A stretch of 64,000 bases of DNA from Betaproteobacteria bacterium (GTDB lineage Bacteria; Pseudomonadota; Gammaproteobacteria; Burkholderiales; SG8-39), in assembly GCA_016234705.1 (NCBI GenBank), contig JACRAS010000148.1, positions 1 through 64,000 on the forward strand, written 5' to 3'. The position numbers and the translations under genes were made by a program. Shown in pieces: positions 20,001-42,693 of the stretch. The notes below the pieces were generated by a model, which was given only the letters and a program-made list of their open reading frames with translations, was not told the DNA's origin and ran no database searches. Numbering within the stretch: position 1 is the stretch's first letter; the number at the start of each line of letters is the position of its first letter.

Positions 20001-20594
20001 CTAGCGCGCCCGGCCCGCCGCCGCGCGCTCTTGTTCCCGCGCGGACTCCCATTCCCAAAGTGCCGCCTGCGCCTTGCGCTGGTAAGGGTCGTCCGGCTTG
20101 CTAAGGTGGACGAAGGTGCGCATGGCGCCGATCGCACCCGGCCGGTCGTGCAGTTCGTCGAGCGCGAGCGCCAGCCCATAATAAGCATTGACCTGCTGCT
20201 TGCGCAATGCGATGGCGCTGTCGAAGAAGTCGCGCGCGGCGCTGTAGCGTCGCAGCCCGATAAGCGCGAACCCCATGTTGACATGGGCTTCAGGCATTGC
20301 CGGATCGAGTTCGAGCACGCGATGGAAAGCAGTCATTGCGTGCTCGAATCGCTTGGCGTGCAGCATGACTACCCCTTGCTGGAAGCGCCGCTGAATTTCC
20401 TGCCGGGTTTGATCGGTCGCGAGTCCCGGCGCGCCCACGGGCGCACTGGCCGTTGAGAATCGCCAACCAAACAGGCCACCCTCGGACACGGCGGCGATCA
20501 CAAGGCCCCCGGCGGCAATGGCGATGACCGTCAGCGCCAGCGCGCGCCAGCGCACGTCGCGCGATCGCGATGCGCGCAGCGCCTGCCAGTTCAT
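20001..20594 (-). CDS. TPR-repeat membrane-anchored protein
   Basis: 197 residues from ATG 20594, which overlaps the TGA of the CcsA gene; a GTG at 20597 is the alternative. One membrane helix (about 18-40) is followed by at least three TPR units (RFQQGVVMLHAKRFEHAMTAF, AHVNMGFALIGLRRYSAARD, AYYGLALALDELHDRPGAI). TPR proteins such as CcmH/NrfG present apocytochromes to the heme ligation machinery, and its place right after ResB and CcsA suggests the same job. It is the last gene of the multiheme operon. Confidence 0.88.
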   Translation of the reverse strand: MNWQALRASRSRDVRWRALALTVIAIAAGGLVIAAVSEGGLFGWRFSTASAPVGAPGLATDQTRQEIQRRFQQGVVMLHAKRFEHAMTAFHRVLELDPAMPEAHVNMGFALIGLRRYSAARDFFDSAIALRKQQVNAYYGLALALDELHDRPGAIGAMRTFVHLSKPDDPYQRKAQAALWEWESAREQERAAAGRAR

Positions 20595-21406
20595 CACACC
20601 GCCCCCTTGTGCGGGGCCGTGGAGACAAACGGCACACCGAAGAAGGTCAGGAACGCCAACACGAACACCGCCATAATGAGCGCCGCGCTATGGTAGGGCT
20701 TGAGCTTGACCGTGACGCGCAGGTGAATGAAGAATGCCAGCAGCAGCCAGGTCGCAAACGCCCAGGTTTCCAGCGGGTCCCATGCCCAGTAGCGGCCCCA
20801 GGCATCCTGCGCCCAGATGGCGCCGGCAACCAGCATCAGCGACTCGAAGACAAACCCGACCATGATGAACCGAAACGCCAGGTTCTCCAGCCGGACACTG
20901 TCGGGAAGCTGGGCCAGGCGTGCGCCGACAATGCCGGCATGACGCAGCAGGATCAGGCCTGCGACACCGACGGCAATCAGCACCGTGCCCAGAAAAACCT
21001 TGCCGAACAGCATGTGAACGTAGAGCCAGACGGTGCGATAGGTGGGCGGAAAATGCCCCGCCGCGGAACTGGTCACGAGCAACCAAGCCATCATCACGAA
21101 AAGAATAGGCATGACCACCACCGCCGCCGGCCGCACCGCGGGCACGCGCCAATACGCCAGCGCATAGATCGTCAGCAGGCTCCACACATTGCTCGACAGG
21201 ATTTCGAACAGGGTGATGAACGGCCCGTGACCGAGCCGCTCCCAGCGCAACCCTAGCGAGACGGCGTGCGCGGCCAGCCCGATCATTATCACCGCAAGGA
21301 TGATCCGCTCGGGACGCTTCGCCAGCACCGTAGCGCCGATCGCCGTCGAGCCCGCCAGCGTGTAGAACATCAATGCCAGCCACAGCAGTTGCAGTTCAGC
21401 CGTCAT
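20594..21406 (-). CDS. ccsA: CcsA/ResC-type cytochrome c synthase subunit
   Basis: 270 residues, about eight membrane helices. The heme-handling WWD signature is WGRYWAWDPLETWAF, with conserved His residues nearby, as in CcsA/ResC of system II cytochrome c biogenesis. With ResB it moves heme across the inner membrane and attaches it to CxxCH motifs. The ATG overlaps the ResB stop by 4 bases. Placement at the end of an operon with 28 heme motifs suggests a dedicated maturation supply. Confidence 0.93.
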   Translation of the reverse strand: MTAELQLLWLALMFYTLAGSTAIGATVLAKRPERIILAVIMIGLAAHAVSLGLRWERLGHGPFITLFEILSSNVWSLLTIYALAYWRVPAVRPAAVVVMPILFVMMAWLLVTSSAAGHFPPTYRTVWLYVHMLFGKVFLGTVLIAVGVAGLILLRHAGIVGARLAQLPDSVRLENLAFRFIMVGFVFESLMLVAGAIWAQDAWGRYWAWDPLETWAFATWLLLAFFIHLRVTVKLKPYHSAALIMAVFVLAFLTFFGVPFVSTAPHKGAV

Positions 21407-22431
21407 GCGTCACCGTCCCACGGCTGCGCCGCGCATTTCTGCCAGAAGTGCCAGCCCAGGCTTGCCACCGCGAGCACGCAGGCGGCAAACAGCCACGGCA
21501 GGGTCCAGTCGTAGAAAACGGTGTAGCCCATCCAGGTGCTCAAGCGCTCGTACACCAGCACGCCCTGCGGCAAGGTGAGACTTGCGCCGGGCGCGAGTTC
21601 GTGCCGTGCCTCGCCGATGCGAACCACGAGTGTGTGTTTCTCAGGCAAGCGGAACTGCGAGACCTGCTCCGGATCGAGCAGAACTTCGTCGAACTGCAGC
21701 ATGGTCCATAGCGGCGTACGTGTGCCGGGCACTGTCCATTCCAACGCCTGGCGGTATTCGTGGATAGGGTAGGAAGGCAGATTGATGGTGCCGCGCCGCG
21801 CCGCGCTGCCATCGGCGGGATGCCACACAAACACCGGCGCGAAACCCTTGTTGAAACTGGTGTAGAAGCGGTAACCCTGGCGCACCAGCGGCTCCTGATC
21901 GCCGATCACCGCGCGCTGCACACCGCCGCTGTCGTCCAGCCAGCTTACGGTGTTGCGTGTTTCGGCCCTGCGCATGCCTTTTTCGTAGCGGATGGTGAAG
22001 CCCTCGTTGACGAACTGCGCGCGCTCGAGCTGCGAACGGTGCCACGGCCCGCTTTCGCTCTGGGTGAGTTGGCCGTGGAAGACTTCGCCTTCGGCCAGTT
22101 CGAGCTGGCCCTTCAGGTAGGTGAGCCGTCCCGCGGCCGCCAGCAGCACCAGCGCCAGCAGCGCCAGATGAAACGTGAGCAACGCGGTCTGCCGCCGGAA
22201 CACGGGGTTGGTCAACACTGCCGCGCTCAGATTGAGGGCGCCCAAGAACAGCGGCACCGCCACAAGCCAAGCCGTGCCGCCTGCCGCGGGGTCGTTGGCA
22301 AGCACGCCTACACCGAGCAGGACCAGTACCGCCAAGGTCAGTTTGAGCGAAGCGAGGCGCATGAGCCATGCGGCCGCGATCCAAGCGCCCGGCGCCTCGG
22401 CAGTACTCAAGTTACCCTCGCTCAGCCCCAC
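21403..22431 (-). CDS. resB: ResB-like cytochrome c biogenesis protein
   Basis: 342 residues from GTG 22431, with AGAGGA 6-7 bases upstream. Three N-terminal membrane helices (about 24-44, 54-74, 83-103), a large periplasmic domain and a final helix near 310-330 match a short ResB/Ccs1. The periplasmic part shows GDQEPLVRQGYRFYTSF and WTMLQFDEVLL. ResB is the partner of CcsA in system II heme attachment. It begins 31 bases after the 11-heme cytochrome gene and overlaps ccsA. Confidence 0.88.
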   Translation of the reverse strand: MGLSEGNLSTAEAPGAWIAAAWLMRLASLKLTLAVLVLLGVGVLANDPAAGGTAWLVAVPLFLGALNLSAAVLTNPVFRRQTALLTFHLALLALVLLAAAGRLTYLKGQLELAEGEVFHGQLTQSESGPWHRSQLERAQFVNEGFTIRYEKGMRRAETRNTVSWLDDSGGVQRAVIGDQEPLVRQGYRFYTSFNKGFAPVFVWHPADGSAARRGTINLPSYPIHEYRQALEWTVPGTRTPLWTMLQFDEVLLDPEQVSQFRLPEKHTLVVRIGEARHELAPGASLTLPQGVLVYERLSTWMGYTVFYDWTLPWLFAACVLAVASLGWHFWQKCAAQPWDGDA

Positions 22432-22462
22432 GGAAAATCCTCTGAGCTCCTGTTGCCGCTCG

Positions 22463-25045
22463 TCATGGCAGGCCGGTACAGTTTTCGTTGCTGTCGCGCA
22501 TCCAGTTTTTGCCGCTCGCGCCGTTACCCGGCGCGCCCTTGGAACCGCAGTCGGCTTCCTTCCACAGGCCGCTGGGCGCGAAATTGCGGATCTTCAGCAC
22601 CGCGTTCATGTAGTACGGCTCCCTATTGTAGGTGGCAGTGGTATTGTTGCGAACTTGCGTTCCCGCGGCCAGTCCGCCCTCGGGCCCGACGTCGTTCAGA
22701 TTCACCAGCAATGCCTTGTTCTTCCAGCCATGCGGCACGGCGACGTGACACCAATTGCAGCGCATGCGCCCGATCTTATTGGCGTGATACGAGTGCAGGT
22801 CACTGCGGCCGCGGTCACCGGGGTCGTTGAAAAAACCCGTTCGCTGGCCGGAATCGGTAGCGTAGGTGGCGTAGTTATGGCACTTGAAGCACACGCCGGC
22901 CGTGTTCGAGACCAACTCGCTGCTAAGGGTGCTCTTGTACCATAGGCCTTTTAGCAGAAAGTTGTTGTTCGATCCATGCGGTCCCCAGGGATTGCCGTTC
23001 TCGCCGCCATCGGGGATCACCGAGGTGCTCGAGGTGACGTTCGAACCGTGGCAGTCGCTGCAGTACATCGTCTGCGCGCCGACCGCGTTTCTCCAGGGCA
23101 GCAGCCAGTTGTTCGCCGAGAGCCCGCCGCGCACCGCCGGCGTGCGCCCGGTGATGTCCATCACCGGGTGCCATGACCGGTGGTTGTTGGTCGAATACGC
23201 CGCGGCGGCGCCGGAGTCGGCCGTCGTCACTTCCCCTTGATGGGCAAAGGGCGCCTGAAATTCCTTCGCCTGGTTGGTGTACTGCGTGAGATTGTTAGTG
23301 CTGGAGGGCGTGCCGCCCGGATAGCCGAGGATCGGCCGGTTGCCTGCCGGATAGGTATTGTTGTCGCTATAGCCATAGTCCGAGTGGCACTTGAGGCAGA
23401 TCTGGTACTCGCGGGTCACATAGGTGGCCGTCACGCTGGTATCTGCGTTGGTGCCCGGATCGCCGCGCTTGACCAGATAACTGGTCGGCAGGCTGCCAAA
23501 CGAGGCGCTGCCGTAGATCGGCTCGACACCCCAGGCGCCGCGCAGGACACCGGACGCGATATTGGTGTGCGTGTAGCCGGCGGCGTCGGTATGTGCATGG
23601 GTGCCCGCGGCGTCTGGCGCGCCGGACAGGGTTCCGGCCGGGTTGCCTACCAGCGATCGGAATTTAACTACCCGGTGCGGATTATGGCAGTCGGTGCACT
23701 CGGCGTGGCGGTTACTGAGGTTGCCCACGCCGAGCTTGGAACGGGACTCGAGCGAGTCCGCCCCGCAGCGGTTCGCCGCGGTGGCGCAGTCGATGAATCC
23801 GTCACTGAAATTGCCGCCGATGTCGTGCACTTCGCTCCCGGCCGGCTGATCGCTCGAAGTGATCGGCATGCGCCGCAGCAGCAGGAAATCGCCCCTGATA
23901 TTGGGCACCGTCGTGCTCGGCGTGATGACGCTGGATGCAGTATCGGTATGACACTGGTAGCAGGTCTGCTCGAGCGCGGAATTGCCGCCGGACTTCGGGT
24001 TCGTTCCACTGTCGGTACCCTCGCGCAACAACCGGCGCGAACCCGGCACGGTATGCGTATCGTGGCAGTTCAGGCAGGCCGCCTTCCATACCGGCAGGTT
24101 CGCCGGAAAATCGCGCTGCGCCGCGGGCGTCGCCAGGTAGGTGGGCGTCGCCACCAGGGGGTTGGCATGCGCCGAATAGGCCCAGGTGCCGCTGCCCTGG
24201 TTCTTGTCGTGGCAGGACAGGCAGATGATGTCGTTCACCACGTCGTGCGTGTTGCTGGGGACCGCCTGCTGGAAGCGATTCAGGCGCAGGAATTTGTGGT
24301 TGCCACGGGTGGTGTCGGTTTCGCGCAGATGCGGATCGTGGCAGGTGCCGCATTGCACCTGGCCCACGCCACCGGCGCCGGTGCCCTCAAGCGGCAACGA
24401 CGGACGGTAACCCGAGACGCGCACGCCGATCACGCTGCCGCTACCCGCCGGCCACTTCTGGTTGGCATCCACCGCGCGCAACTCGCCGTCGCGCGTGGCC
24501 AGCGTGCTGGTGAAATTCACCGAAATCGGATGGTCGTTGGTAAGATCCACGCCAAGATTGCGCGTGAATCCGGTCGACGCACCGGTACCTCCGGGCATCA
24601 CGCCGCCAGTACCGGTACCAGTCATCGGAATGGATACCGTGCCCGGCGTGCTCGATCCTTGCCCCCCCAGCACATTGACGTTGCCGATCGCCAGCGTGCC
24701 GTCGTGGCACGACAGGCACAACTTGGAACTGCCGCCCGGCTGATCGAGCGAGCCCTGGATCGCATTGGCGTCAAGCGAGGAAGACGTGTATACGGAATAC
24801 GTTGCATTCGAAAGGGCACGGTTCCATAGCGGAGTCACTCCGGAGGTCGCGGCGTGCGGCGTATGGCAAAACACGCACACCTGCGTCTCCGAAACCGCCT
24901 TCACCGTGCCGGCTCCGCCCGCCGACAGATTGTGCTTGGTGTTGCGCACATCGGGGACCAGCGCGGCGCAGGCCGCGCCCGCCGCCACGACAGCGACCAC
25001 TGCCCATGCCGTAATCAGTACGCCACGGATGTTAGCCACCATCAC
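22463..25045 (-). CDS. Large multiheme cytochrome c with 11 CxxCH motifs
   Basis: 860 residues with an N-terminal signal helix (about 8-28). Eleven heme motifs are seen in order: CVFCH, CLSCH, CGTCH, CLSCH, CLNCH, CYQCH, CTDCH, CLKCH, CSDCH, CFKCH and CNWCH. The first part (KHNLS, CVFCHTPHA, PLWNR, CLSCHDGT, NDHPISV, CGTCHDPH) is the doubled-CXXCH pattern and is homologous to the tetraheme protein at 33831-34655. Size and heme number fit an outer-surface or periplasm-spanning electron carrier. Ser/Thr/Gly-rich spacers are typical of exported surface cytochromes. The start ATGATG overlaps the NHL lipoprotein gene by 14 bases. Confidence 0.95.
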   Translation of the reverse strand: MMVANIRGVLITAWAVVAVVAAGAACAALVPDVRNTKHNLSAGGAGTVKAVSETQVCVFCHTPHAATSGVTPLWNRALSNATYSVYTSSSLDANAIQGSLDQPGGSSKLCLSCHDGTLAIGNVNVLGGQGSSTPGTVSIPMTGTGTGGVMPGGTGASTGFTRNLGVDLTNDHPISVNFTSTLATRDGELRAVDANQKWPAGSGSVIGVRVSGYRPSLPLEGTGAGGVGQVQCGTCHDPHLRETDTTRGNHKFLRLNRFQQAVPSNTHDVVNDIICLSCHDKNQGSGTWAYSAHANPLVATPTYLATPAAQRDFPANLPVWKAACLNCHDTHTVPGSRRLLREGTDSGTNPKSGGNSALEQTCYQCHTDTASSVITPSTTVPNIRGDFLLLRRMPITSSDQPAGSEVHDIGGNFSDGFIDCATAANRCGADSLESRSKLGVGNLSNRHAECTDCHNPHRVVKFRSLVGNPAGTLSGAPDAAGTHAHTDAAGYTHTNIASGVLRGAWGVEPIYGSASFGSLPTSYLVKRGDPGTNADTSVTATYVTREYQICLKCHSDYGYSDNNTYPAGNRPILGYPGGTPSSTNNLTQYTNQAKEFQAPFAHQGEVTTADSGAAAAYSTNNHRSWHPVMDITGRTPAVRGGLSANNWLLPWRNAVGAQTMYCSDCHGSNVTSSTSVIPDGGENGNPWGPHGSNNNFLLKGLWYKSTLSSELVSNTAGVCFKCHNYATYATDSGQRTGFFNDPGDRGRSDLHSYHANKIGRMRCNWCHVAVPHGWKNKALLVNLNDVGPEGGLAAGTQVRNNTTATYNREPYYMNAVLKIRNFAPSGLWKEADCGSKGAPGNGASGKNWMRDSNENCTGLP

Positions 25046-26114
25046 CGCCCGTCTCCAGATACTGGAATACCACTACGCGCCCGTTGAACATGTCGCCGAC
25101 AAATACCCGGTTACGACTGTCGATCCAGGCGCCGGCCGGCAGATAGAACCTGCCGGTCTCCTGTCCAAGCCCGCCGATCGCCATCAGAAAATCGCCGTCC
25201 CGATTGAATACGAGCAGGTGGTCGTGATAGGACTCGACCACATAAATGTTGCCGTCGCTGTCCACCGTGATGCCCTTGGGCCGCACCAGGTTACCGACAA
25301 ACAGCCCGCGCCTGCCGAAACTCGAGCGCCAGCGATCGCCGCCGTCGGCGAACACCTGAATGCGGCTGTTCATGGTATCCGCGACATACAGCTCACCGCG
25401 CGCGAACGCGAGGAAAGTCGGAAAGTTGAACTCGCCCGCACCTTCACCCTGGCGGCCGATCACCTGCAGCAGTTGCCCATCATCGTCGAAAACCTTGATG
25501 TCATGCGCGTAAGTATCGGCGACGAAAATGCGCTTGCGCGCCGCATCGTAGGCCAAGCCGGTGGGCCGCTTGAGTACACCGCGTCCGATCGCGCGTCCGG
25601 GGTTCCCGCTTGCATCGAGACGGGCGACAATGCCAAGCTGGGCGTCGGCAACCAGTATCTGGCCGGCTGGGCCGGCCGCAATGCCGATCGGGGCAATAAA
25701 ATTGGCGAGCCCATCTGCCTTGTCCCACAGCAGCAGTTCGCCCGCAACCGGGTCGAACACGAACACCGCCTGGCGGCTTGCATCCGTAACCAGAATTCGT
25801 CCCGTCGCGTCAACCGTCCCGGACTGCGGTCGCTGCAGCACCGTTGACGGTTGCTCGCCGACGACGAGCGCGGCAAGCCGGCGCAGCAATCCGCCGACGC
25901 CGTCCGCCGCGGCCGGCGCCGGCCTGAAAGTCACCTCGCCGAGGAGCTGCCCGGCATACATGAAACGCGGTACCTCCGGCGCCGCCGGCCACATCAGACG
26001 GCGGCCTTCGGGCGCATCTTCCATGCCGAAATGCAGCACGCGCGGAGCGGGCGCGGCGCAGGCGCCCAGCAGCACGCACAACGCCAGAAAAAGAGCGGTC
26101 GACAGCTTTACCAT
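25032..26114 (-). CDS. NHL-repeat beta-propeller lipoprotein
   Basis: 360 residues from ATG 26114, chosen because the lipoprotein signal (MVKLSTALFLALCVLLGAC) then starts at once; a longer frame upstream is not coding. The body has repeated NHL/six-bladed propeller strands (GRILVTDASRQAVFVFD, KRIFVADTYAHDIKVFD, GELYVADTMNSRIQVF, GNIYVVESYHDHLLVFN, NRVFVGDMFNGRVVVF). NHL propellers are often found beside exported multiheme cytochromes and probably act as assembly or docking proteins. It overlaps its neighbours on both sides. A paralog is at 34908-36038. Confidence 0.9.
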   Translation of the reverse strand: MVKLSTALFLALCVLLGACAAPAPRVLHFGMEDAPEGRRLMWPAAPEVPRFMYAGQLLGEVTFRPAPAAADGVGGLLRRLAALVVGEQPSTVLQRPQSGTVDATGRILVTDASRQAVFVFDPVAGELLLWDKADGLANFIAPIGIAAGPAGQILVADAQLGIVARLDASGNPGRAIGRGVLKRPTGLAYDAARKRIFVADTYAHDIKVFDDDGQLLQVIGRQGEGAGEFNFPTFLAFARGELYVADTMNSRIQVFADGGDRWRSSFGRRGLFVGNLVRPKGITVDSDGNIYVVESYHDHLLVFNRDGDFLMAIGGLGQETGRFYLPAGAWIDSRNRVFVGDMFNGRVVVFQYLETGGDGG

Positions 26115-26494
26115 CGGCCTGGCCCTAATGACTGATTGCCGCCATGGACGCGACTTTCCAGGCCATGGCGTCCCGAGTGGCACAGATCGCAGCGCTCCGT
26201 GCCCCACGCGATCTGGCCGTTGTGGCACAAACCGCAGAACTTGCCGTTGACGATATCCACCATGAGCACGTCGTTGGCGCCCGCCCGCATCTTGAAGCCC
26301 AGTTCATCGTGGCATACTTTACAGCGAAAGCGGATGCGGTGAAACCAGTGCGAAAAGATCACCGGACGCATGCCCTCTTTATCCGAGCGCTTGTTGAGCA
26401 CCACGTCGCCATACTCGGCTCGCGCCGGCGCCACATCCAGCACCGCACCGAGAGCCATCAGCATCGACAAGCACATGAGCATGCCCTTGCGCAT
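26108..26494 (-). CDS. Triheme c7-type cytochrome (family A')
   Basis: 128 residues with a signal peptide ending near PARA. Three motifs (CKVCH, CGLCH, CDLCH) with outlying His residues in SHWFHRIRF give the compact cytochrome c7 fold; mature start EYGDVV. It is a close paralog of the protein at 29914-30333 (same EYGDVV start, HWFHR, CxxCH spacing). A soluble periplasmic electron shuttle is the likely role. Its stop codon overlaps the NHL lipoprotein gene by 7 bases. Confidence 0.92.
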   Translation of the reverse strand: MRKGMLMCLSMLMALGAVLDVAPARAEYGDVVLNKRSDKEGMRPVIFSHWFHRIRFRCKVCHDELGFKMRAGANDVLMVDIVNGKFCGLCHNGQIAWGTERCDLCHSGRHGLESRVHGGNQSLGPGRW

Positions 26495-26496
26495 GG

Positions 26497-27081
26497 CTAG
26501 GAACCCCGCACGGCTGCGGCAGGCAGCGGCTTGTCACGCGCTGTGTTGTGGCAGCGCCCGCACTGGGTCAAGGGAAACGCAACCGCGCCATGGCAGACCC
26601 CGCACTGCTCGCCTTGCAGGATGAGCTGCATACTGAATTTGTTGGCGCCCGCCTTCGACTTGAACAATTGCTCGTGGCAGTTGCTGCAATCGAGCCACAC
26701 GGTGTGCTGCCGGTGCGGGAAACGGACGATGGGCGTGCCGCCGCGGAGGTTAAGCAGAATGTCCGTGTCGAGAACGCGTATCTTGGTTTCCGGGAGGATG
26801 TTGGTGCGTGGATTGATGCGACCCTGTTCCAGCGCCGTTGGCCAATGCACCAGGTTTCCCGAGGGGTCTGCCGGCAAGCGTGACAGCGCTTCACCCGGTT
26901 GCTGCAACAACCGCAGTGCCGGACTCTTGGGATCGTGGATGCCGTCTTTTGCCAGCGGCACCCAGCGCCGCACCGGTTCGGCTGCGATGGGCGTCCGCGC
27001 AAACAGGATCATTGTCGCCAGCAACAGCCATATGCAGTACCTCGACCGTCGCATACTCCGCCCGCTGCGCATCCGCGCCAC
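26497..27081 (-). CDS. Triheme c7-type cytochrome (family B')
   Basis: 194 residues from GTG 27081; an internal ATG near 27054 (MRRSRYCIW) would give a cleaner signal peptide and is an alternative. After the signal comes a region with KDGIHDPKSPALRLLQQP and then FPHRQHTVWLDCSNCH, CGVCH and CGRCH, three heme motifs. It is a paralog of the C-terminal half of the protein at 28900-29901 (DGIHDP, SNCH, CGVCHGKVAFP) but lacks the N-terminal class I cytochrome domain of that protein. It begins next to the stop of the helical protein gene. Confidence 0.9.
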   Translation of the reverse strand: MARMRSGRSMRRSRYCIWLLLATMILFARTPIAAEPVRRWVPLAKDGIHDPKSPALRLLQQPGEALSRLPADPSGNLVHWPTALEQGRINPRTNILPETKIRVLDTDILLNLRGGTPIVRFPHRQHTVWLDCSNCHEQLFKSKAGANKFSMQLILQGEQCGVCHGAVAFPLTQCGRCHNTARDKPLPAAAVRGS

Positions 27082-27957
27082 CTAGCCCGGAATGAACACG
27101 CCGGCGCCGCGGATGGCGCGTATCAGCTCGCGCGTCGACTCCTCCAGCAGCCTTACCCCGGCGGCGTGGTCGGCGCCGGCGGCCGCGGCATCGGCCTGAT
27201 TACGCAACTGCAATGCTTTGGCCAGCACGGATTGCTGCTCGGTGGTGCGCGTTTTGCCGTTCAACAGCACCTTGATCAGCATCTGGTGGGTGTCGTTGCG
27301 GTCGACCTCGTAGCGGTATTCCTCTTCCCTCGTCGCAAAGTGCAGCGAGCGCACCAGCGTATCACCGCCGCGCAGCGAACTCACCGCGGCCTTGGCGAGG
27401 AGATAAGCACGGTCCAGCGCCGCGCGCCCGGCATCGAGTTTGCCCTCGCCCGCCAACCGCCGGGCGTCGCCGATCAGATTGTCGACGTCGCGGCTGGTTT
27501 CCGCCACGCCGGCAGTACCCGGTTTTTCCCCGGCGACGCGGCGAAAAGCGGCGTGCAGGGAATTGACGCTATCCAGGCGCGCTTCAAAGTCGCTGCGTGC
27601 CTTGGGCTCGGCGACTTCCCCGGGCGCCGCGGAGCGCACCGCCTCGAACATCTGCACACTTGCTTCCGGCAGCAACGCCGAGGCGCGCGCGTACTGGGCC
27701 GCCCGAAACGCGGCGCGCGCCTGGCGATAGATCTCGCGCGCTTTCTCGTGCTTTTGCCGGGCGCTTGTGTCGCCGCTCGCCTCGATCTGGCGCGCCGCCG
27801 ATGATTTTTCCAGCAGGGTTTCCACCGCTGCCAGCCGCTGTTCCAGCCGGACCCGATCCACGGCTGCATCGGCGGCTGCCGGCTGCGTGGAAACCTCCGT
27901 GGAAGCCGCTGCCGCACTCAAGACGAGCACCACCATACAGACTCGAATCGCCCTCAT
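27082..27957 (-). CDS. Helical periplasmic protein of unknown function (family H')
   Basis: 291 residues from ATG 27957, where a signal peptide (MRAIRVCMVVLVLSAAAAS) begins. The rest is Ala/Arg/Glu-rich and predicted almost fully helical, with heptad-like stretches (RLEQRLAAVETLLEKS, KHEKAREIYRQARAAF). No CxxCH and no family I recognise. It is a paralog of the next upstream protein (27980-28903): both share EYxxELERNR/EYRYEVDRN-like segments and an ALxxGxxxLxxAI C-terminus. Always flanked by c7 cytochromes here, it could be a scaffold or docking partner for them. Confidence 0.8.
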   Translation of the reverse strand: MRAIRVCMVVLVLSAAAASTEVSTQPAAADAAVDRVRLEQRLAAVETLLEKSSAARQIEASGDTSARQKHEKAREIYRQARAAFRAAQYARASALLPEASVQMFEAVRSAAPGEVAEPKARSDFEARLDSVNSLHAAFRRVAGEKPGTAGVAETSRDVDNLIGDARRLAGEGKLDAGRAALDRAYLLAKAAVSSLRGGDTLVRSLHFATREEEYRYEVDRNDTHQMLIKVLLNGKTRTTEQQSVLAKALQLRNQADAAAAGADHAAGVRLLEESTRELIRAIRGAGVFIPG

Positions 27958-27979
27958 GATCACCCCGTCACCACGGAAA

Positions 27980-28903
27980 TCATTGCGGTCTTGGATCCTG
28001 CGGCACGCGCAGCCCGGCCGCCGCCAGCGCGCTCTGCAACTGGGCCGTTCCACTGCGCAGCGCCGTCAGCGCCGAGTGATAATCCTTCGCGGCCGCGTGC
28101 CGTTGCGCCTGCTCGCGCAGTCCGCGGTTGGCATCCACGAATTGCCGGGCCTCGCGCACCGCTTCGCCGCCGGGCTTGAACCCGTCCAACGCAATCGGGA
28201 TGAGGTCGGCGTAGCTGCGGTTGCGTTCCAGCTCGTTGGCGTACTCTTCGGCCAGGGTCTCGAAACGCTGGACATACTCGATAGTCTTCGAGCCCAGCAC
28301 CCGGCCGAGGCCCATCATCAATGTTCGTTCCGCCTCGGCCAGCGACTTGTTGGCCTGCACGACCTGCTCCGATTCCGCGTGACCCTTGGCGCGGTCGACG
28401 AGCTGCGCCACTTTAACCAGCAAGGCATCGTTTGCGGCCGCCTCCGGCGGCTGCGGCCTCGCGCGCTGCAAGTGCCGCTGATAGGAAATACGCAGCGACT
28501 CGACCGAATCCAGCATTTGCGCGTAGCGCACCCGGTGCTCGACATTGCGCGCAAGCGGGTCCGGCACGAGCTGGCGCGCCTTGCCGATCAACCAGGTCGC
28601 TTGGTTGAGGTGTTTGTCCGCACCGGCGATATCATTATTCTTGATCGAGAGCACTGCATTACGGAAGTTCTCCTGCGCGCTGGCCAGAAATTTCCTGGCT
28701 TCGGCATTGTTGCCGGCCTCGATGCGCCTGATTGCCGGAGAATCGGATAGCACGCGCTTCAGAAAGGCTGCCTTCTGCTCGACGAGCTGGCGCGACGCGT
28801 TTACCGTCGGGCTTGGCACCTTGGTTTCGCCCTGGGCGGCGTACGCCGCGACGCAAGTGCCGGACGTTACCGCCAGCACGATCCACTGTAGCAGGCGCGT
28901 CAT
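27980..28903 (-). CDS. Helical periplasmic protein of unknown function (family H)
   Basis: 307 residues from ATG 28903, which overlaps the stop of the tetraheme gene by 4 bases (ATGA). A signal peptide ends near AAYAA. The mature protein is helical (LVEQKAAFLKRVL, EARKFLASAQENFRNAVLS, YQRHLQRA) with a TPR-like feel but no clear repeat. Paralog of the protein at 27082-27957; the shared core is around EEYANELERNRSYADLIPI. Function unknown. Confidence 0.8.
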   Translation of the reverse strand: MTRLLQWIVLAVTSGTCVAAYAAQGETKVPSPTVNASRQLVEQKAAFLKRVLSDSPAIRRIEAGNNAEARKFLASAQENFRNAVLSIKNNDIAGADKHLNQATWLIGKARQLVPDPLARNVEHRVRYAQMLDSVESLRISYQRHLQRARPQPPEAAANDALLVKVAQLVDRAKGHAESEQVVQANKSLAEAERTLMMGLGRVLGSKTIEYVQRFETLAEEYANELERNRSYADLIPIALDGFKPGGEAVREARQFVDANRGLREQAQRHAAAKDYHSALTALRSGTAQLQSALAAAGLRVPQDPRPQ

Positions 28904-29901
28904 GGTTTGCCTCCTCCCGCGGACTGGGCTTCGGCGATCCGCGCCTCGGCGCTTTTCTGCCGCGCGTGGCACAGCCGGCATTCCGAGATCGGAAACGCGA
29001 CCTTGCCGTGACACACGCCGCATTTCTGGCCGAGCATGATGGCGGCCATGCTGATCTGGTTGGACCCCTTCTGCGGCGTGAATATCGCCGGATGACAGTT
29101 CGAGCAATCCAGCCACTCCGTGTGCTGCTTGTGCGGAAACACAACGTCGTGCATCGAACCCTTGACTTCGCGCACGATGTTCAAGTCCATGACCGTGGCC
29201 TGGGCTTTGGGGTCGCGGACATCCCACCGCGGCTGGATTCGCTTACTGCCGAGAGCCGCACCCCAGTTCACGTAGTTGCCGAGGTTGCTGCGCGGCAGCG
29301 ACTGGAACGAGCGCAACGGCGCCTGCAACAGCGCGGTGCCCGGGCTCGCCGGATCGTGGATGCCGTCCTCGCTTGGCGGGCGGTTGCGCCCCGACGGCGC
29401 CGCCATCAGGCGATTAAAGGCGTTGGGGTCGCCGGCCTCCTGCGGCGCCGGCGCTACTGGCGCGCTCGCAACGGCGGTGCCACTTGCCTGCAGTGTTTGC
29501 GCGACCGGCTGGATTGGCGCGGCTGGCACCGCGGCCACGCCGGGTTGCGGCGGCGCGCTGTCGCCGCGCGCTTGCGCCAGCATGAAATCGACCGCCGCGC
29601 GCAGATCCGCGTCGGGGAGCGAAGCGTTGCCACCCTTGGGCGGCATAGCGCCTTTGCCTTTGATGGCGTTGGTGTATACCGGTCCGGTTCCCGCGCCGAG
29701 CCGCGCCGCCCAAGCCGCGACGTCACCAAGCTTGGGCGCCCCCGCCAGGCCGAGCGTGTGACAGGCGGCGCAAGCTGCCTGATACACCAACTTGCCCTTG
29801 GCGAGGTCCGCCGCTTTGGCATTCGGCGATTGCTGCGCGTGCGTCAAGCCGACCAACAACGCCGCGCACGCCAGCCCAACAGTAAAAAATCGAAGCTTCA
29901 T
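28900..29901 (-). CDS. Tetraheme cytochrome: class I cytochrome domain fused to a triheme c7 domain (family B)
   Basis: 333 residues with signal peptide (ends near LTHAQ). Residues about 30-110 form a class I (c5-like) cytochrome with CAACH and a distal Met in GKGAMPPKGGNASLPDADL. A Pro/Ala linker (about 115-160) leads to a c7 domain with CSNCH, CGVCH and CRLCH. The N-terminal domain resembles the single-domain cytochromes at 36224-36532 and 37884-38186, so it probably arose by fusion. It could link monoheme carriers to the multiheme chain. Confidence 0.92.
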   Translation of the reverse strand: MKLRFFTVGLACAALLVGLTHAQQSPNAKAADLAKGKLVYQAACAACHTLGLAGAPKLGDVAAWAARLGAGTGPVYTNAIKGKGAMPPKGGNASLPDADLRAAVDFMLAQARGDSAPPQPGVAAVPAAPIQPVAQTLQASGTAVASAPVAPAPQEAGDPNAFNRLMAAPSGRNRPPSEDGIHDPASPGTALLQAPLRSFQSLPRSNLGNYVNWGAALGSKRIQPRWDVRDPKAQATVMDLNIVREVKGSMHDVVFPHKQHTEWLDCSNCHPAIFTPQKGSNQISMAAIMLGQKCGVCHGKVAFPISECRLCHARQKSAEARIAEAQSAGGGKP

Positions 29902-29913
29902 CCCGGGTCGTCC

Positions 29914-30333
29914 CTATTTCTTGCCGCCGGCCGCCGGCGCCGGCGCGCCCAACAGATTGATGGTGCTCTCGTGCAACTGCGTCGGCGTGCCGGGCTTGGC
30001 GGAATGGCACAGATCGCAGTTCTCCACCGACCAGGCCACCGAACCATTATGGCAGGCGCCGCAGTATTGACCGTCAATGATTTTCAGCATGTTGATCTCG
30101 TTGCCCCCGGCCTTGAACTTTATGCCGAGGTCGGTGTGACACGCCTTGCAGCGAAAGCGCACGCGGTGGAACCAATGCGGGAACACCACCGGGCGCATGC
30201 CGGCGCCGTCGGAATAATTGTTCATGACCACGTCGCCATACTCGGCGCGTGCCGAGTGCACGCCGCCGGACAGCACCATGACAGCCGCGGCCAGCGCCGC
30301 GCACGCGGCCACCCCTTTCCAGCCGCGGCTCAC
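29914..30333 (-). CDS. Triheme c7-type cytochrome (family A)
   Basis: 139 residues from GTG 30333 with GGGAGGGG upstream. Signal peptide ends near HSARA; mature start EYGDVVMN. Heme motifs CKACH, CGACH and CDLCH with His ligands in FPHWFHRVRF. Paralog of 26108-26494, with a slightly longer Ala/Pro/Gly tail. Likely periplasmic carrier near the beta-barrel protein, whose gene ends 34 bases upstream. Confidence 0.92.
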   Translation of the reverse strand: MSRGWKGVAACAALAAAVMVLSGGVHSARAEYGDVVMNNYSDGAGMRPVVFPHWFHRVRFRCKACHTDLGIKFKAGGNEINMLKIIDGQYCGACHNGSVAWSVENCDLCHSAKPGTPTQLHESTINLLGAPAPAAGGKK

Positions 30334-30367
30334 CGCACCCCTCCCTTCGCCCGAAGTTTCTCTACCA

Positions 30368-32695
30368 CTAGTAACCTCCGAATTCCCGCATCATGCGGAA
30401 AAAAATCATGGCATCGCGCCGCCCCTCGACCTGGGCAAAGCGCATCGACAAGCCCAGCGCGACGCGCCCGATGTTGTAGTCCAGGCGCTGTTCGAACGAT
30501 TGGTTCACCCGCTCGCGTGGGGCGTCGATGTCCCCCTGCAAGCGCGACTTGAACCGCGACTCGTTGGCGCTGTAGAGGGCGCTATAGCGCAGCCGCGGCA
30601 CGTCGAACGCGCGCTGTTGAAAATAACTCAGATTGCCGCTGGTATTGAAAGTCATCCCGGTGCGCGGCGTATTGGGCGTGGCCTGGCGCACGCCTTGCAC
30701 CGTCAGGTTGGCCGCGACCGAGGCGTTGCGGCTGAACTGGACTTGGCCGCTCGCCTGGAAATTGAGCAGTTGGAAGTGGTTTTGGTTTTGGCCGCTGCTG
30801 ATCGAGTCGGCGCCGATCAGGCTCACGTAAGCGCTGGTCGCCGCGCCCCGCGACAAGCGCCACGAGGCGCTCGCATTGTGGCCGAGCGACTGCGAACCCG
30901 CGGTAACGCTGTCAAAACTGGCGCCGACGCTCTGCCCGAGACCGAAGTTGGCTTGCGAGTTCTCGCCCAAGTTCAAGCTGCGATTGAGGTTATGCCCGAA
31001 CTGGCCGCCCAGGTTTTGGCGCATGCCTTCGACAAGGCCGGTTTGGTTGGAGACGTTTGCACCGGTGTTCCAGGTGTAATTGGCCCCGAAAATCCCGACT
31101 GGATCGCCAATGCGGGTTGCGTAGGCGGTCTGTGTGGTCACAAGCCTGCTGGCCGCATCTGTAAGCAACTGCGTGACAGAGACGCTGGCGGCGAGGCTGG
31201 TTTGGCGGCTGAGCGCGTAAGTCGCGGCCAGGTTTGCGCCCAAGGTAAGAGACTGCGTTTGTGTTGCGCTATTTGCGATCGCGGAGCGGAACATGCGTGC
31301 GCCGCCGGTCACATAAAGGGGCGAGTCCTCCTCCGGGCGCCAGGTCGCGAAGGTGTTGGCCTGCGCAAAATTTGAACGATTTTCCGTGGGCACTCCGGCC
31401 GAGAGCAGACGAAAATCGCTGCTGCTCAGGCTGGCAAGGCTCTCGACCGACAACTCCGGCTCCGGACGGTAGCTATGTCGCCCATTGATCTGGCTGAACG
31501 CAGTACGCTCGCCGGTGTCGCTGCGCGTATTGCCGGTGTGGCTGCCCGACAGGTTGAACGACTGCGGGCCGGCGTCTCGGTTCATGCTCGCCGCCAGGGC
31601 ATTCACGGTATCCCGGCCGAAGGACTGCGACTCCAGCGTGCTGCGGTTGAAGCTCGCGCTGTAATTATCCCCGCCTTCGAGCGGACGATAGCTCTGGCGC
31701 ATGCCGAATCGCGTGCTGGTAATGTCGCCGCTGGTCAATTCACCGCTCGCTCGGCTGTCGCTCACGTCGAAGTAAGCGTTGAACGGAAACCGGCTTACCG
31801 GGAACAGCGTCGCCTCAGCATTGCCGGTCACCGCGTTCGATCGGGTACTGTGTGCCTGCTCGGCGGACAGGCCCGCGCCAGCGCTTTGCCGCTCCTGGCT
31901 GACGAGCAATCCCAGGCCGCCGCTCACCTGCGCGAACCATGGCTGCCAGATGTAACTGGCGCCTTTGATGTTGGCGCTTTCAATCCGCTGCAGTCGCCGC
32001 GGATTATTCCCCGAGTTGTTCATGCGAATGTCGGTCGCCATGGATCCGCCCCAGCGCACCGGTGGCAGGCCCCATCCGAACCAAGGCGGCGATACCCCGA
32101 CGATCGCGCCACTCGCCGCATCGGCGGCCGCGCCACTCGCCGCATCGGCGGCCGCGCCACTCGCCGCATCGGCGGCCGCGGACGGCTGCGGTTGTTGCGC
32201 ATCGACGCCTGCGTCTGTTGCCGTTCCCGCGCCTATGGCCTGCGCGAGCAGCAAACCGCCCACTCGCGGCCGCGGGCCCCGTTCGAACCGGCCAGGGGAT
32301 TCGGCCGAGATCGCGTCATGCGCCGTATCCTGAGAGCGAGACGGCGGGGTATTTCTGGGATTGGCGCGAACATCTTTCGTTGTTCGCACGGCGATGCCTT
32401 GCGCCAGCAGCAAACCGCCCCACCGCCGCGCTGGCAGGTCCCGTTCGAACCCGCCGCCGGGGGATGCGATAGAGACCGCGTCGTTTGCTGCATTCGGCGT
32501 GCCGGAAGACGACCGCGGTGTCTTGGGATCGGTCGCAACGTCAGTCCTCATTCTCGCGTGACCGCCCGGCGCGGGCAGCATAGCCAACTGCCCCGCCGCA
32601 GGCTGTGCGCCCGCGCTGTTGGCATGCGCGATCACGCCCGCGCACCAAGTGGCAAGTACTGTCGCGCGCCAACCGTGTTTCTCCGGGCTCCACAC
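30368..32695 (-). CDS. Predicted outer-membrane beta-barrel protein with repetitive N-terminal plug region
   Basis: 775 residues from GTG 32695. A signal peptide (about 1-30) is followed by a low-complexity region (about 45-225) built from 53-residue repeats around RxGGLLLAQxI and three AAADAASG octapeptides. From about 240 to the end the sequence alternates polar and hydrophobic residues in many amphipathic strands with aromatic girdles (SFNLSGSHTGNT, YVSLIGADS, SYFQQRAFDVPRLRYSALYSAN), and ends in REFGGY, fitting a barrel of 20 or more strands. No heme motif and no MtrB-type N-terminal CxxC. In an operon of multiheme cytochromes the obvious model is the porin of a porin-cytochrome conduit. 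Confidence 0.82.
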   Translation of the reverse strand: MWSPEKHGWRATVLATWCAGVIAHANSAGAQPAAGQLAMLPAPGGHARMRTDVATDPKTPRSSSGTPNAANDAVSIASPGGGFERDLPARRWGGLLLAQGIAVRTTKDVRANPRNTPPSRSQDTAHDAISAESPGRFERGPRPRVGGLLLAQAIGAGTATDAGVDAQQPQPSAAADAASGAAADAASGAAADAASGAIVGVSPPWFGWGLPPVRWGGSMATDIRMNNSGNNPRRLQRIESANIKGASYIWQPWFAQVSGGLGLLVSQERQSAGAGLSAEQAHSTRSNAVTGNAEATLFPVSRFPFNAYFDVSDSRASGELTSGDITSTRFGMRQSYRPLEGGDNYSASFNRSTLESQSFGRDTVNALAASMNRDAGPQSFNLSGSHTGNTRSDTGERTAFSQINGRHSYRPEPELSVESLASLSSSDFRLLSAGVPTENRSNFAQANTFATWRPEEDSPLYVTGGARMFRSAIANSATQTQSLTLGANLAATYALSRQTSLAASVSVTQLLTDAASRLVTTQTAYATRIGDPVGIFGANYTWNTGANVSNQTGLVEGMRQNLGGQFGHNLNRSLNLGENSQANFGLGQSVGASFDSVTAGSQSLGHNASASWRLSRGAATSAYVSLIGADSISSGQNQNHFQLLNFQASGQVQFSRNASVAANLTVQGVRQATPNTPRTGMTFNTSGNLSYFQQRAFDVPRLRYSALYSANESRFKSRLQGDIDAPRERVNQSFEQRLDYNIGRVALGLSMRFAQVEGRRDAMIFFRMMREFGGY
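32106..32177. repeat. Three perfect 24-bp tandem repeats inside the barrel gene
   Basis: Unit from GCGCCACTCGCC to ATCGGCGGCC, repeated three times without change; each encodes eight residues of an Ala/Ser/Asp segment. Perfect identity suggests recent or unstable expansion. Confidence 0.9.
32241..32558. repeat. Imperfect 159-bp repeats encoding the N-terminal region of the barrel protein
   Basis: TGCGCGAGCAGCAAACCGCC at 32241 recurs with one change at 32400; the protein units RxGGLLLAQxI...T..D...SPG.FERG are 53 residues apart, with a more diverged third unit next to the signal peptide. Confidence 0.7.
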
Positions 32696-32734
32696 ATCAC
32701 TCTTCTCTTCTCGTCAGTCGAGTCACGTCACCGC

Positions 32735-33763
32735 TCAATGCGCCGCTCCGGCGCCAGCCGCGCCGCTATCGCCGGCGGCAGCGCGAACGCGGTCGGCGCC
32801 GATCCTGATTTCGGCGCCGGCCCGCAACCGGGCGCGCAACTCGCGCCACTGCGTTTCCCCCTGCTCGCGCTCCCACAGCTCGGCGACGTTGCGCCGCACC
32901 TCCTGCAAGGTCCGCAACTGCGCGGGTCGACGCTCGGCAACGCGGAAAACCGCCACGCCCTCCAGCAATCTTAGCGGTTCCGAGATCGCGCCGGGCGCCA
33001 GCTTGTCGATTTCGGTCTCGACGCCCTGGGGTAAGGTGCCGCGATGACGGTATCCCATGTCGCCCCCGTCGCGCGCCGAGTCATCACCCGAATGCCGCCG
33101 CGCGAGCTCGGCAAAGTCCGCGCCATTCGCGAGTTGCCCGATAATGTCTTGTGCCTTCTGCTGCGCCTGCTCCCGCACCGAGGACGGCGAGGACGGGTCG
33201 ATCTTAAGCAGAATCATCGACAGCCGCAACTGCTCCGGTTGAATGAACAGCTCGGGATGGGATTCGTAGTAGGCGCGCAGCCCGGCCTCGGTGGACGGCG
33301 GCGCGACGCGGGTCGCCGCTTCCAACTGCGCAAGCACGCTTTGCTCTTCCAGAGCGCGCGTGAACTCCGGCAATACCCGCGCACGGTCCGCCTGCCATTG
33401 CGGATGGTCGCGATAGCGTTGTTCGTGGGCCGCAAGCTTCGCGCGCACCTGTTCCTCGTCCGCACGAATGCCGCGGCGCTGCGCTTCTTTTAACAACAAC
33501 ACCCGGTCGACCAGGTTATCGGTAACCTCGCTTCGTAGCGCGGCGAGCTGGTCTTCCGGCGGCTGGCGGTGATAATACTTCTGCCGGACCGCGGCCTGCA
33601 GCGCCGCCTCGAACTGCTGCGTGCTGATCGCCGCGCCATCGACCACTACCAGAACCGCGTCCGGCGAGCCGTCGGTGTCCGTGCCGGCGGCGGCCCAGCA
33701 AGCCGGTGCAAAAAGCCACAGCGCAGCGACGAGACCGGCTAACCCTCGCATCATTCTGGTCAC
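32735..33763 (-). CDS. Periplasmic parvulin-type peptidyl-prolyl isomerase (PpiC/SurA-like)
   Basis: 342 residues from GTG 33763 (ATGATG nine bases later is the alternative). Signal peptide to about residue 25. An N-terminal SurA-like helical chaperone part (VDGAAISTQQFEAAL, VTDNLVDRVLLLKEAQRRG) precedes a parvulin domain (about 185-285) with LRLSMILLKI, FAELARRHSGDDSARDGGD and GYRHRGTLP. It would help fold exported proteins; its place between a cytochrome gene and the barrel gene suggests it serves the barrel or the cytochromes. Confidence 0.9.
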   Translation of the reverse strand: MTRMMRGLAGLVAALWLFAPACWAAAGTDTDGSPDAVLVVVDGAAISTQQFEAALQAAVRQKYYHRQPPEDQLAALRSEVTDNLVDRVLLLKEAQRRGIRADEEQVRAKLAAHEQRYRDHPQWQADRARVLPEFTRALEEQSVLAQLEAATRVAPPSTEAGLRAYYESHPELFIQPEQLRLSMILLKIDPSSPSSVREQAQQKAQDIIGQLANGADFAELARRHSGDDSARDGGDMGYRHRGTLPQGVETEIDKLAPGAISEPLRLLEGVAVFRVAERRPAQLRTLQEVRRNVAELWEREQGETQWRELRARLRAGAEIRIGADRVRAAAGDSGAAGAGAAH

Positions 33764-33786
33764 GGCTGAGGACCTCTCAATAAAGA

Positions 33787-33813
33787 ACGGGTCAGCCCTA
33801 CCGCCTGACCCGT
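33787..33813 (-). terminator. Intercistronic hairpin after the first cytochrome gene
   Basis: ACGGGTCAG and CTGACCCGT form a perfect 9-bp stem with a 9-base loop, followed on the minus strand by TTCTTTATT. This is a partial intrinsic terminator or 3'-end stabiliser between the tetraheme gene and the rest of the operon. Confidence 0.65.
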
Positions 33814-33830
33814 GGTTGGCGAAAGCGGGA

Positions 33831-34655
33831 CTACTTAACGTGGCAGGAGAGGCACAGGGCGCTGCCGGTATTGGCAACCCGCAGGAACGTCGTATTAGAG
33901 CTGTGCGGATCGTGGCAACTGCCGCATTCGACCGAGGGGCTCACGCCGGCGCTGAAGGTGCGCCGGTAAAGAATCATGTCCGCTTTTTCGCGCGTGCCGG
34001 CGACCGCGGTGTCAACCCAAAACTGGACCAGACCATTGATCGTCGCACGGCTGACCGCTTTGAAGTCCGGGTCTTTGCAGGTGCCCGCCGCTTCGGTGAT
34101 CCCGCCGCCGCAATACTCGACGCCGATCGGATGATCGTTGCGCAGATCGGCGCTGAGATTGGTGATGCCAGCGGGCATCTGGCCGGTTGCGCCTACATAC
34201 GTCGTCCAGGTGTACCCCGCCGGTCTGGCACCTCCCGCACTGAAACCGCCAGACCCTGGCGCGTTGATCATGTTGTCCATCGCCTGGGTGCCGTCGTGGC
34301 ATGACAGACAGGCTTGCGAGACCGAGCCGACCGTCAGGACCTGACCATCGAGAGTGCCCGACTCACCACCCGTCGCACCGTAGAGCGTGTAAGTGGTCGA
34401 GGGCAGATTCTTGTTCCACAAGGGAGCGGTTCCGACCTGACTGCCGTGGGGGGTGTGGCAGAACACGCACACTTCATCGGTTCCCGCAGTAAGGTGGGCG
34501 GTTGTGGCCGTGGCCCCGGCGTTGCCCGTGCCTAGGTTATGCTTGGTGCCACTGATCTGCGCCAGCGCCGTGTCGGCTGCCATCGTTGTAAACATGACGA
34601 TACTCGCCGCGGCAATCCAGCCGCCTAGTGAATCCAGCTTACTCAGACGTTCCAT
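33831..34655 (-). CDS. Tetraheme cytochrome c with doubled CXXCH pattern, first gene of the multiheme operon
   Basis: 274 residues from ATG 34655 with AAGGAG 7 bases upstream. A signal peptide ends near TALAQ. Four heme motifs (CVFCH, CLSCH, CGSCH, CLSCH) and the landmarks KHNLG, CVFCHTPHG, PLWNKNL, CLSCHDGT, NDHPIGV and CGSCHDPH show homology to the first four-heme segment of the 860-residue cytochrome at 22463-25045. It ends in SCHVK. The strong ribosome site, the nearby sigma-54 promoter and the hairpin after it suggest it is the most abundant product of the operon. Confidence 0.94.
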   Translation of the reverse strand: MERLSKLDSLGGWIAAASIVMFTTMAADTALAQISGTKHNLGTGNAGATATTAHLTAGTDEVCVFCHTPHGSQVGTAPLWNKNLPSTTYTLYGATGGESGTLDGQVLTVGSVSQACLSCHDGTQAMDNMINAPGSGGFSAGGARPAGYTWTTYVGATGQMPAGITNLSADLRNDHPIGVEYCGGGITEAAGTCKDPDFKAVSRATINGLVQFWVDTAVAGTREKADMILYRRTFSAGVSPSVECGSCHDPHSSNTTFLRVANTGSALCLSCHVK

Positions 34656-34729
34656 GATTCGCTCCTTTCTGTTAATACCCTGTCAATGTCGTCTTGTCCG
34701 AACCCGAAAACGGTTCTCAGCGGATCATA

Positions 34730-34745
34730 TGCATCTTTCGTGCCA
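34730..34745 (-). promoter_or_regulatory. Sigma-54 (-24/-12) promoter of the multiheme operon
   Basis: On the minus strand TGGCACG-AAAG-ATGCA, one base away from TGGCACG-N4-TTGCW. Transcription would start near 34719 and give a leader of about 64 bases. No other good promoter is seen before 20001. Confidence 0.7.
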
Positions 34746-36038: not shown

Positions 36039-36169
36039 GCGTGTTCTCCGCGGTGATAACTCGCCTGTCATGGGGGAACCGGATTGCCCGGATCAGCCGG
36101 ATCACCTCCGGGGCGCGCCCGCCGTTGTCTAATGGTCGCACATATCGTACCCATTGTGCATCACGCCGT

Positions 36170-37611: not shown

Positions 37612-37674
37612 GATGCCTGTGTGTAACATGCCTGATTCGAAATCAATCCGCCCACTGCATGCGTATTCAGCCGG

Positions 37675-37693
37675 TACAATATTGTTTATTGTA
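37675..37693. promoter_or_regulatory. Perfect palindrome TACAATA-N5-TATTGTA
   Basis: An AT-rich 7-5-7 dyad 64 bases upstream of the Sel1-cytochrome start in a GC-rich region; a transcription factor operator is likely, identity unknown. Confidence 0.45.
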
Positions 37694-37836
37694 TCCAACC
37701 GCGCTACTGCCCGGTTAATTCGGTGATGATGCAACTAGCCGGTTGTTCTGGGAAACTACGGACATGATATCGGCGCTACTGGATTCTGCGGGTATCCGGC
37801 ATGGGTTTAACAGGACGAAGGTTTATGCCCTGGCCG

Positions 37837-37863: not shown

Positions 37864-37883
37864 CCGGAACCCGAACGAGCCGG

Positions 37884-41684: not shown

Positions 41685-41693
41685 GACTCCTCC

Positions 41694-42678: not shown

Positions 42679-42693
42679 TGTCGGTGTCTCCTC

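Follow-up and report, generated by a model that had tools for sequence, protein, structure and literature searches.

The stretch of DNA analyzed here, called the window, comprises 64,000 nucleotides (64 kb, G+C 63%) of contig JACRAS010000148.1 from the Betaproteobacteria bacterium assembly GCA_016234705.1. Its minus strand carries an operon of 14 genes, at 20001-34655, that is probably a uet-type extracellular electron transfer operon. Uet is the undecaheme electron transfer cluster of the cathode-dwelling Ca. Tenderia electrophaga (PMC10734462, PMC12575090, PMC5371394). The original prediction, made from the DNA sequence, had read the same genes as an undescribed porin-cytochrome electron conduit with its own heme-attachment genes. 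The observation itself was confirmed, and the interpretation was partly supported. The genes are best read as an electron conduit that includes a transmembrane barrel, as the model of UetC indicates. The claim of an undescribed conduit was rejected because the gene set and the gene order match those of Uet, for which PMC10734462 and PMC12575090 describe a cluster with the same parts. The operon belongs to this published kind and represents a new carrier of it.

The Uet complex, classed in PMC10734462 as a porin-multiheme cytochrome (MHC) complex, consists of the undecaheme UetJ, the extracellular tetraheme UetA, the triheme UetDEG, the peptidylprolyl isomerase (PPIase) UetB, the NHL proteins UetHI, and the barrel UetC. 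The same paper reports Uet parts in six Gallionella, with UetC in 4 of the 6. The genes uetABCDEFGHIJ are conserved in Tenderiales (PMC12575090), and a Uet cluster has also been reported from Leptothrix. In Tenderia, the undecaheme gene is Tel_16545, and the triheme genes Tel_16515, Tel_16520, and Tel_16530 flank the TPR gene Tel_16525; on the cathode, expression of the trihemes is among the highest of all genes (PMC5371394).

The operon in the window shares with Tenderia Uet the tetraheme, PPIase, barrel, triheme, NHL, and undecaheme components, and it shares their order as far as the published gene letters and tags imply it. UetA, UetB, and UetC are mutually adjacent, as in Uet. Three trihemes and one TPR gene are described for Tenderia, whereas four triheme proteins and two F proteins are encoded here. 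For the two NHL proteins UetH and UetI of Uet, the possible counterparts here are one NHL gene within the operon and one upstream of uetA. The ResB, CcsA, and TPR genes that follow UetJ are absent from the Uet descriptions consulted.

Organization of the operon

The features of the operon and the gene next upstream of it, all on the minus strand, are listed below in window positions.

33831..34655, minus strand: UetA-like tetraheme cytochrome, placed in the OmcE nanowire family by matches to PDB 7tfs_A (E 3.2e-27) and 9yuq_N (E 7.6e-26)
32735..33754, minus strand: UetB-like secreted PPIase of the parvulin/SurA type, start set at ATG 33754; PF00639, E 1.7e-17 for the longer open reading frame 32735-33877
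30368..32695, minus strand: UetC-like predicted outer-membrane beta-barrel of 775 residues, from an all-beta meander model, barrel structure matches, and homologues that adjoin UetB
29914..30333, minus strand: UetD-like triheme c7 cytochrome; TIGR04257 nanowire_3heme, E 2.2e-18
28900..29901, minus strand: UetE-like fusion of monoheme cytochrome c and triheme c7 domains; PF13442, E 7.4e-14, and TIGR04257, E 2.3e-18
27980..28903, minus strand: F1, helical secreted protein in the UetF position, ATG at 28903, with homologues in the same place
27082..27957, minus strand: F2, helical secreted protein, distant paralogue of F1 (blastp 27%, E 3e-5)
26497..27081, minus strand: UetG-like triheme c7 cytochrome; TIGR04257, E 2.2e-17; 46% identity to the C-terminal part of UetE over 154 columns
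26108..26494, minus strand: G2, second small triheme c7 cytochrome and paralogue of UetD (54%); TIGR04257, E 1.2e-18
25032..26114, minus strand: NHL beta-propeller lipoprotein of the UetH/I type, start set at 26114, with a lipobox-like LGAC; PF01436, E 1.6e-29 for the longer open reading frame 25032-26228
22463..25045, minus strand: UetJ-like undecaheme cytochrome with 11 CxxCH, with near full-length relatives in most of 80 related loci
24206..24937, minus strand: OmcE-like tetraheme module of UetJ (residues 37-280), from structure overlay on 7tfs and similarity to UetA
21403..22431, minus strand: ResB, system II heme ligase subunit; PF05140, E 9.4e-10, 38.3 bits (cut-off 24.6)
20594..21406, minus strand: CcsA/CcsB-type heme handling protein; PF01578, E 4.9e-23, 82.3 bits (cut-off 29.9)
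20001..20597, minus strand: TPR protein, final gene of the operon; PF07719, E 2.8e-12
34908..36071, minus strand: second NHL lipoprotein, 252 bases upstream of uetA; PF01436, E 1.5e-26

The fourteen minus-strand genes of the original prediction were all recovered as open reading frames (ORFs). Their close packing was also seen, with gaps of -14 to +76 bases when the preferred starts are used; the maximum of 67 bases given earlier presumably came from other start choices. The CxxCH motifs of the six cytochromes number 4 (33831-34655), 3 (29914-30333), 4 (28900-29901), 3 (26497-27081), 3 (26108-26494), and 11 (22463-25045), exactly as counted before. For the protein at 28900-29901, the count of four was right and the domain composition had been missed: its first heme belongs to a monoheme cytochrome domain, to which a triheme domain is fused. 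The parvulin, NHL, ResB, CcsA, and TPR assignments were confirmed by Pfam and NCBIfam. The CcsA-type protein scored 131.3 bits against TIGR03144, which is under the cut-off of 187.6. For UetC, F1, and F2, searches of Pfam (E <= 0.1) and NCBIfam (E <= 0.01) gave no family match.

Four operon proteins exceed the cut-off of TIGR04257 nanowire_3heme, a cut-off reached in 0 of 14 control genomes. One further triheme c7 cytochrome over this cut-off lies outside the operon in the same genome (C225:3290-3523). The middle of the operon (26108-30333) is arranged as a mirror-image pair of three-gene sets, D-E-F1 and F2-G-G2, with pairwise identities of 54%, 46%, and 27%. An NHL gene beside uetA was also found in the related loci L014, L016, L019, and L020. 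Promoter and terminator scans were no richer than shuffled sequences, with 3 versus 2.4 (standard deviation 1.6) and 14 versus 14.0 (standard deviation 4.6), respectively.

UetA and the first module of UetJ are related to OmcE

Sequence comparison places UetA and residues 37-280 of UetJ in the OmcE nanowire family. A match to 7tfs_A with E 6.9e-27 covers UetJ residues 9-240; this PDB entry is titled 'Cryo-EM of the OmcE nanowires from Geobacter sulfurreducens'. UetA and UetJ of the window are 34% identical over 275 columns (E 6.6e-32), and UetJ is the sole strong relative of UetA in its own genome. Structure prediction of the 11-heme protein had been proposed with the original prediction. In the UetJ model (predicted local distance difference test, pLDDT, 71.8; predicted template modelling score, pTM, 0.77), residues 37-280 overlay 7tfs with Z 10.6 and 3.3 A over 188 of 202 residues by VIA. 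Three chains were aligned to the model by VIA, and the undecaheme S-layer cytochrome 6qvm reached Z 2.7. Foldseek with the same model gave no match at E <= 0.001. The six cytochromes had correctly been called multiheme proteins; the OmcE nanowire homology of two of them, UetA and UetJ, had been missed.

The heme-binding residues were compared by alignment. In 33 aligned UetA sequences (32 of 48 UetA-like ORFs plus the window, with 16 left out as cut at locus ends or having fewer than 4 CxxCH), the four CxxCH motifs and four further His (39, 70, 175, and 251) are invariant. The UetJ alignment used 56 of 85 rows plus the window and was restricted to ORFs with 11 or more CxxCH, which makes its motif invariance partly a matter of choice; L059:296-3400 in its row list is a 24-heme protein and not UetJ. 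In a joint alignment of 33 UetA, 29 UetJ N-modules, and 21 OmcE-like proteins, the CxxCH columns are kept in 82 or 83 of the 83 rows. Three of the four non-CxxCH His are kept in 83/83 rows and the first in 80/83, where alignment trimming may have removed it from the three UetJ rows without it. The 29 UetJ rows were taken from 57, and all 83 rows were selected for having the CxxCH motifs in reach and not for the His. OmcE (7tfs) and the 9yuq cytochrome have the same four CxxCH and four further His as UetA and the UetJ N-module. In a tree with a midpoint root only, the three groups are separate, with support of 100/100 for the UetJ N-modules, 97/89 for the OmcE-like proteins, and a weaker 89/58 for UetA; UetA and the UetJ N-module group apart from the OmcE-like proteins examined.

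OmcE forms extracellular filaments in which a His of the adjacent subunit coordinates a heme (PMC9473688). The full conservation of the four His ligands makes OmcE-type contacts plausible in UetA and is no proof of them.

UetC is a predicted barrel with no MtrB family match

The UetC model, built from seven sequences, is an all-beta meander that is confident only at about 377-690. Structure prediction of the barrel had also been proposed as a check, and the best PDB matches are outer-membrane barrels: BtuB-type, MtrB (6r2q_B), PapC, LptD, and TonB-dependent receptors, with VIA Z of 13.0-15.6 among the matches listed. The model argues for a barrel without distinguishing between kinds. CxxC is absent from UetC and from 56 of 58 UetC homologues among the matches listed.

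A barrel and multiheme cytochromes in one operon are also the pattern of MtrCAB, MtoAB, and PCC systems. The uet operon differs from these in having no MtrA-type decaheme, no MtrB family match, and no barrel CxxC; the lack of the CxxC and of the decaheme had been stated correctly in the original prediction. No NCBIfam family, MtrB/PioB included, is matched by UetC at E <= 0.01, whereas the MtrB of the genome, on contig C228, matches with E 1.4e-159. None of the operon proteins reaches the cut-off of TIGR03508 for MtrA/DmsE decahemes, and the sole match of the genome over it is also on C228. This contig (L166:7110-16630) carries an MtrCAB-type set with an MtrB/PioB barrel, a DmsE-family decaheme, and two OmcA/MtrC decahemes. 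Membership of the uet operon in MtrCAB was rejected since no MtrB or MtrA family match was found in the operon, and the earlier view that the conduit is not of the MtrCAB type holds.

The cluster is conserved around UetJ

Gene order was searched in other genomes, as had been suggested. Searching the GTDB contig collection with a five-sequence UetJ alignment yielded 566 pattern matches, of which 404 encode a relative by the threshold of the search tool. The best 80 of the 404 were kept, so the cluster counts describe the closest relatives; loci with enough flank are called testable. The UetJ ORF has 11 CxxCH in 78 of the 80 nearest loci, while L047 and L048 have 9. Among testable loci, the families near UetJ are NHL (67/72), c7 cytochromes (60/65), F protein (53/59), barrel (48/52), PPIase (46/51), ResB (67/74), CcsA (56/68), and, downstream, TPR (51/63). 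L028 was scored without ResB, CcsA, and TPR in this count, although profile hits list all three there. All eight marker families are present in 35 of the 44 loci with enough flank on both sides, so the cluster is more than chance.

The titles of the 80 loci name beta-, gamma-, and alphaproteobacteria and Magnetococcales, along with a single contig of 3.1 kb (L093) that is filed as Desulfuromonas, carries UetJ, and may be a binning error. Named carriers include Sphaerotilus mobilis DSM 10617 (L045; synonym Leptothrix mobilis), Dechloromonas hankyongensis XY25, and Ramlibacter albus GTP1. In a profile search at E <= 1e-100, UetJ was found in 24 of 398 sampled Pseudomonadota genomes, the genome of the window included. 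A UetC match was found in 7 of 100 genomes of its own group, again with itself included, and carriage is therefore patchy.

A ResB-CcsA pair follows UetJ

A ResB with a CcsA-type partner is the pair of system II (Ccs) cytochrome biogenesis, and a system II heme ligase within the operon, as originally predicted, was verified by Pfam. The difference from other system II pairs is that this one lies within a cytochrome operon, in an assembly having the system I proteins CcmABCEF. The ResB of the operon is the only ResB match in the assembly, which is 96.34% complete. A search for CcmA, CcmB, CcmC, CcmE, and CcmF found all five in the same assembly; another CcsA-like gene is on contig C59. The sole ResB despite CcmABCEF, together with the frequent ResB-CcsA after UetJ, suggests that the pair is a ligase kept for the Uet cytochromes. 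The earlier statement that an operon-encoded system II ligase is unusual does not hold, given the counts for ResB and CcsA above and the presence of both in 4 of 22 OmcE-type loci.

OmcE-like loci in Desulfuromonadales

The contig filed as Desulfuromonas belongs to genome G100, whose order we take to be Desulfuromonadales. A UetA profile at E <= 1e-20 found matches in 24 of 38 genomes of this order, at 47 places, and 22 of the 47 were examined. An NHL-type match is near all 22 OmcE-like genes; some of these matches are weak and in proteins near 1000 residues. L134, L144, L149, and L152 have a CcsA and a ResB-like neighbour, with ResB confirmed by Pfam at two of them (E 6.2e-106 and 3.2e-107). 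These four loci have an 8-heme protein and a 9- or 23-heme protein in place of UetJ, and no UetC homologue was found in them. The tetraheme cytochrome of L149 is identical over 218/218 residues to 9yuq_N, from an entry of 16 chains, and the locus also carries two NHL genes, CcsA, and ResB. The term 9YUQ was not found among the open-licence literature matches listed. UetC showed no profile similarity to the neighbour of about 750 residues that accompanies OmcE-like genes in five loci (hhalign probability 0.2%).

In 7 of the 22 loci (L136, L138, L140, L141, L142, L148, and L150), the OmcE-like gene has as neighbours an NHL-type gene and a gene for a giant cytochrome of 47-61 CxxCH.

Genes upstream of the Uet region

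Three monoheme cytochrome c genes lie on the minus strand at 36224-38186. One has a Sel1 repeat, and the other two are 56% and 43% identical to the monoheme domain of UetE. Further upstream, a formate dehydrogenase set on the minus strand (40617-48627) encodes a gamma subunit, an FDH3 beta subunit, an alpha subunit, and an iron-sulfur protein of 702 residues. The alpha subunit scores under the TIGR01591 cut-off.

Discussion

The proposed mechanism is as follows. ResB and CcsA, with the TPR protein, would assist in maturing the numerous c-type hemes. The triheme proteins would relay electrons across the periplasm, and UetC, with one of the cytochromes, would span the outer membrane. UetB and the NHL lipoproteins may help to assemble or anchor the outer parts. 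UetA would be outside the cell and would polymerise, or at least dock, via OmcE-type His-heme contacts, forming or extending a heme wire, with UetJ as the putative link. The favoured direction, by analogy with Tenderia, is electron uptake from a cathode or from Fe(II) minerals: a cathode supports growth of Tenderia, and RuBisCO is present in the genome of the window (assembly contamination 6.45%). Reduction is also possible, and the genome contains an MtrCAB-type set as well, a kind known from metal reducers.

How the Uet parts work together can be read in more than one way. An OmcE-type nanowire machine, with UetA as the filament subunit, UetJ as the terminal or base subunit, and UetC as an export or anchor pore and not an MtrB-like sheath, is given slightly under an even chance. 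It is favoured by the same four non-CxxCH His in UetA, the UetJ N-module, and the OmcE-like proteins, which were not selected for; by the ligation of an OmcE heme by the His of a neighbouring subunit (PMC9473688); and by L149, where the 9yuq cytochrome is encoded with two NHL genes, CcsA, and ResB. However, homology is no proof of polymerisation, the idea of UetJ as a base rests on shared domains, UetC has no profile similarity to the neighbour of OmcE-like genes, and there is dispute over what cytochrome filaments do physiologically (PMC11077965). The same operon could instead encode a closed, MtrCAB-like porin-cytochrome conduit, in which UetC sheathes one multiheme cytochrome and UetA and UetJ act as non-polymeric surface reductases or oxidases. 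The barrel gene beside the cytochromes, the porin-MHC classification of PMC10734462, and the position of MtrB (6r2q_B) as second Foldseek match of UetC (E 5.7e-6) are consistent with it. The Z scores, however, put MtrB level with TonB-dependent receptors, LptD, and others; the MtrA cut-off is reached by none of the operon proteins, and the MtrA and MtrB of the genome are elsewhere. This closed conduit is possible and is held to be appreciably less than an even chance.

A soluble periplasmic respiratory system with no outer-membrane step was also considered. Four of the six cytochromes have c7 triheme domains, a type known from the periplasm, which is the point in its favour. A barrel homologue is near UetJ in nearly all testable loci, Pfam gave no match to a catalytic reductase family among the operon proteins, and OmcE, the relative of UetA, forms extracellular filaments (PMC9473688). 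A soluble periplasmic reductase was rejected on the usual presence of the barrel and the lack of a catalytic family match, and this system is very improbable.

Several observations weigh against the assignment to Uet and against the role given to it. The likeness to Tenderia Uet is judged by published descriptions, and the 80 loci kept include no Tenderia record. F1 and F2 have no Pfam TPR match, though Tel_16525 is called a TPR gene, and the Tenderia undecaheme gene showed no differential expression between two potentials, with a non-significant triheme rise at 310 mV (PMC5371394). Among the 80 loci, most of the cluster is missing around UetJ in L047, L064, L073, and L094, and L034 and L059 lack four marker families each. 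Beyond its middle part, the UetC model is of poor quality (mean pLDDT 50.0, with 460 of 775 residues under 50), and its TM-scores by query length are low, at 0.14-0.34 among the 50 Foldseek matches listed. The MtrCAB-type set means that Uet is not the only conduit of this genome.

As a joint proposal, Uet would be a proteobacterial OmcE-type nanowire system, in which UetA is the polymer, UetJ is the terminal subunit joining the wire to the cell, the first module of UetJ is an ancient UetA paralogue, and a dedicated system II ligase is kept beside system I. This combination is tentative and may more easily be wrong than right. If it is true, beta-, gamma-, and alphaproteobacteria would possess cytochrome nanowires that have a fixed base and heme-attachment machinery of their own.

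The OmcE kinship, the system II pair that looks dedicated, and the ResB-CcsA and NHL genes at the 9yuq locus are additions to the Uet descriptions consulted; the literature searches on them covered the open-licence papers listed, and unpublished status is not claimed. What had been supposed to be a new conduit is assigned to a named system, Uet, which is shown to be common in Pseudomonadota. With the ResB-CcsA pair, it becomes possible to test whether a second heme ligase is retained by bacteria for a single electron-transfer system. The result ties Uet by homology to the OmcE nanowires, and its named carriers make both the nanowire and the ligase question approachable outside Geobacter.

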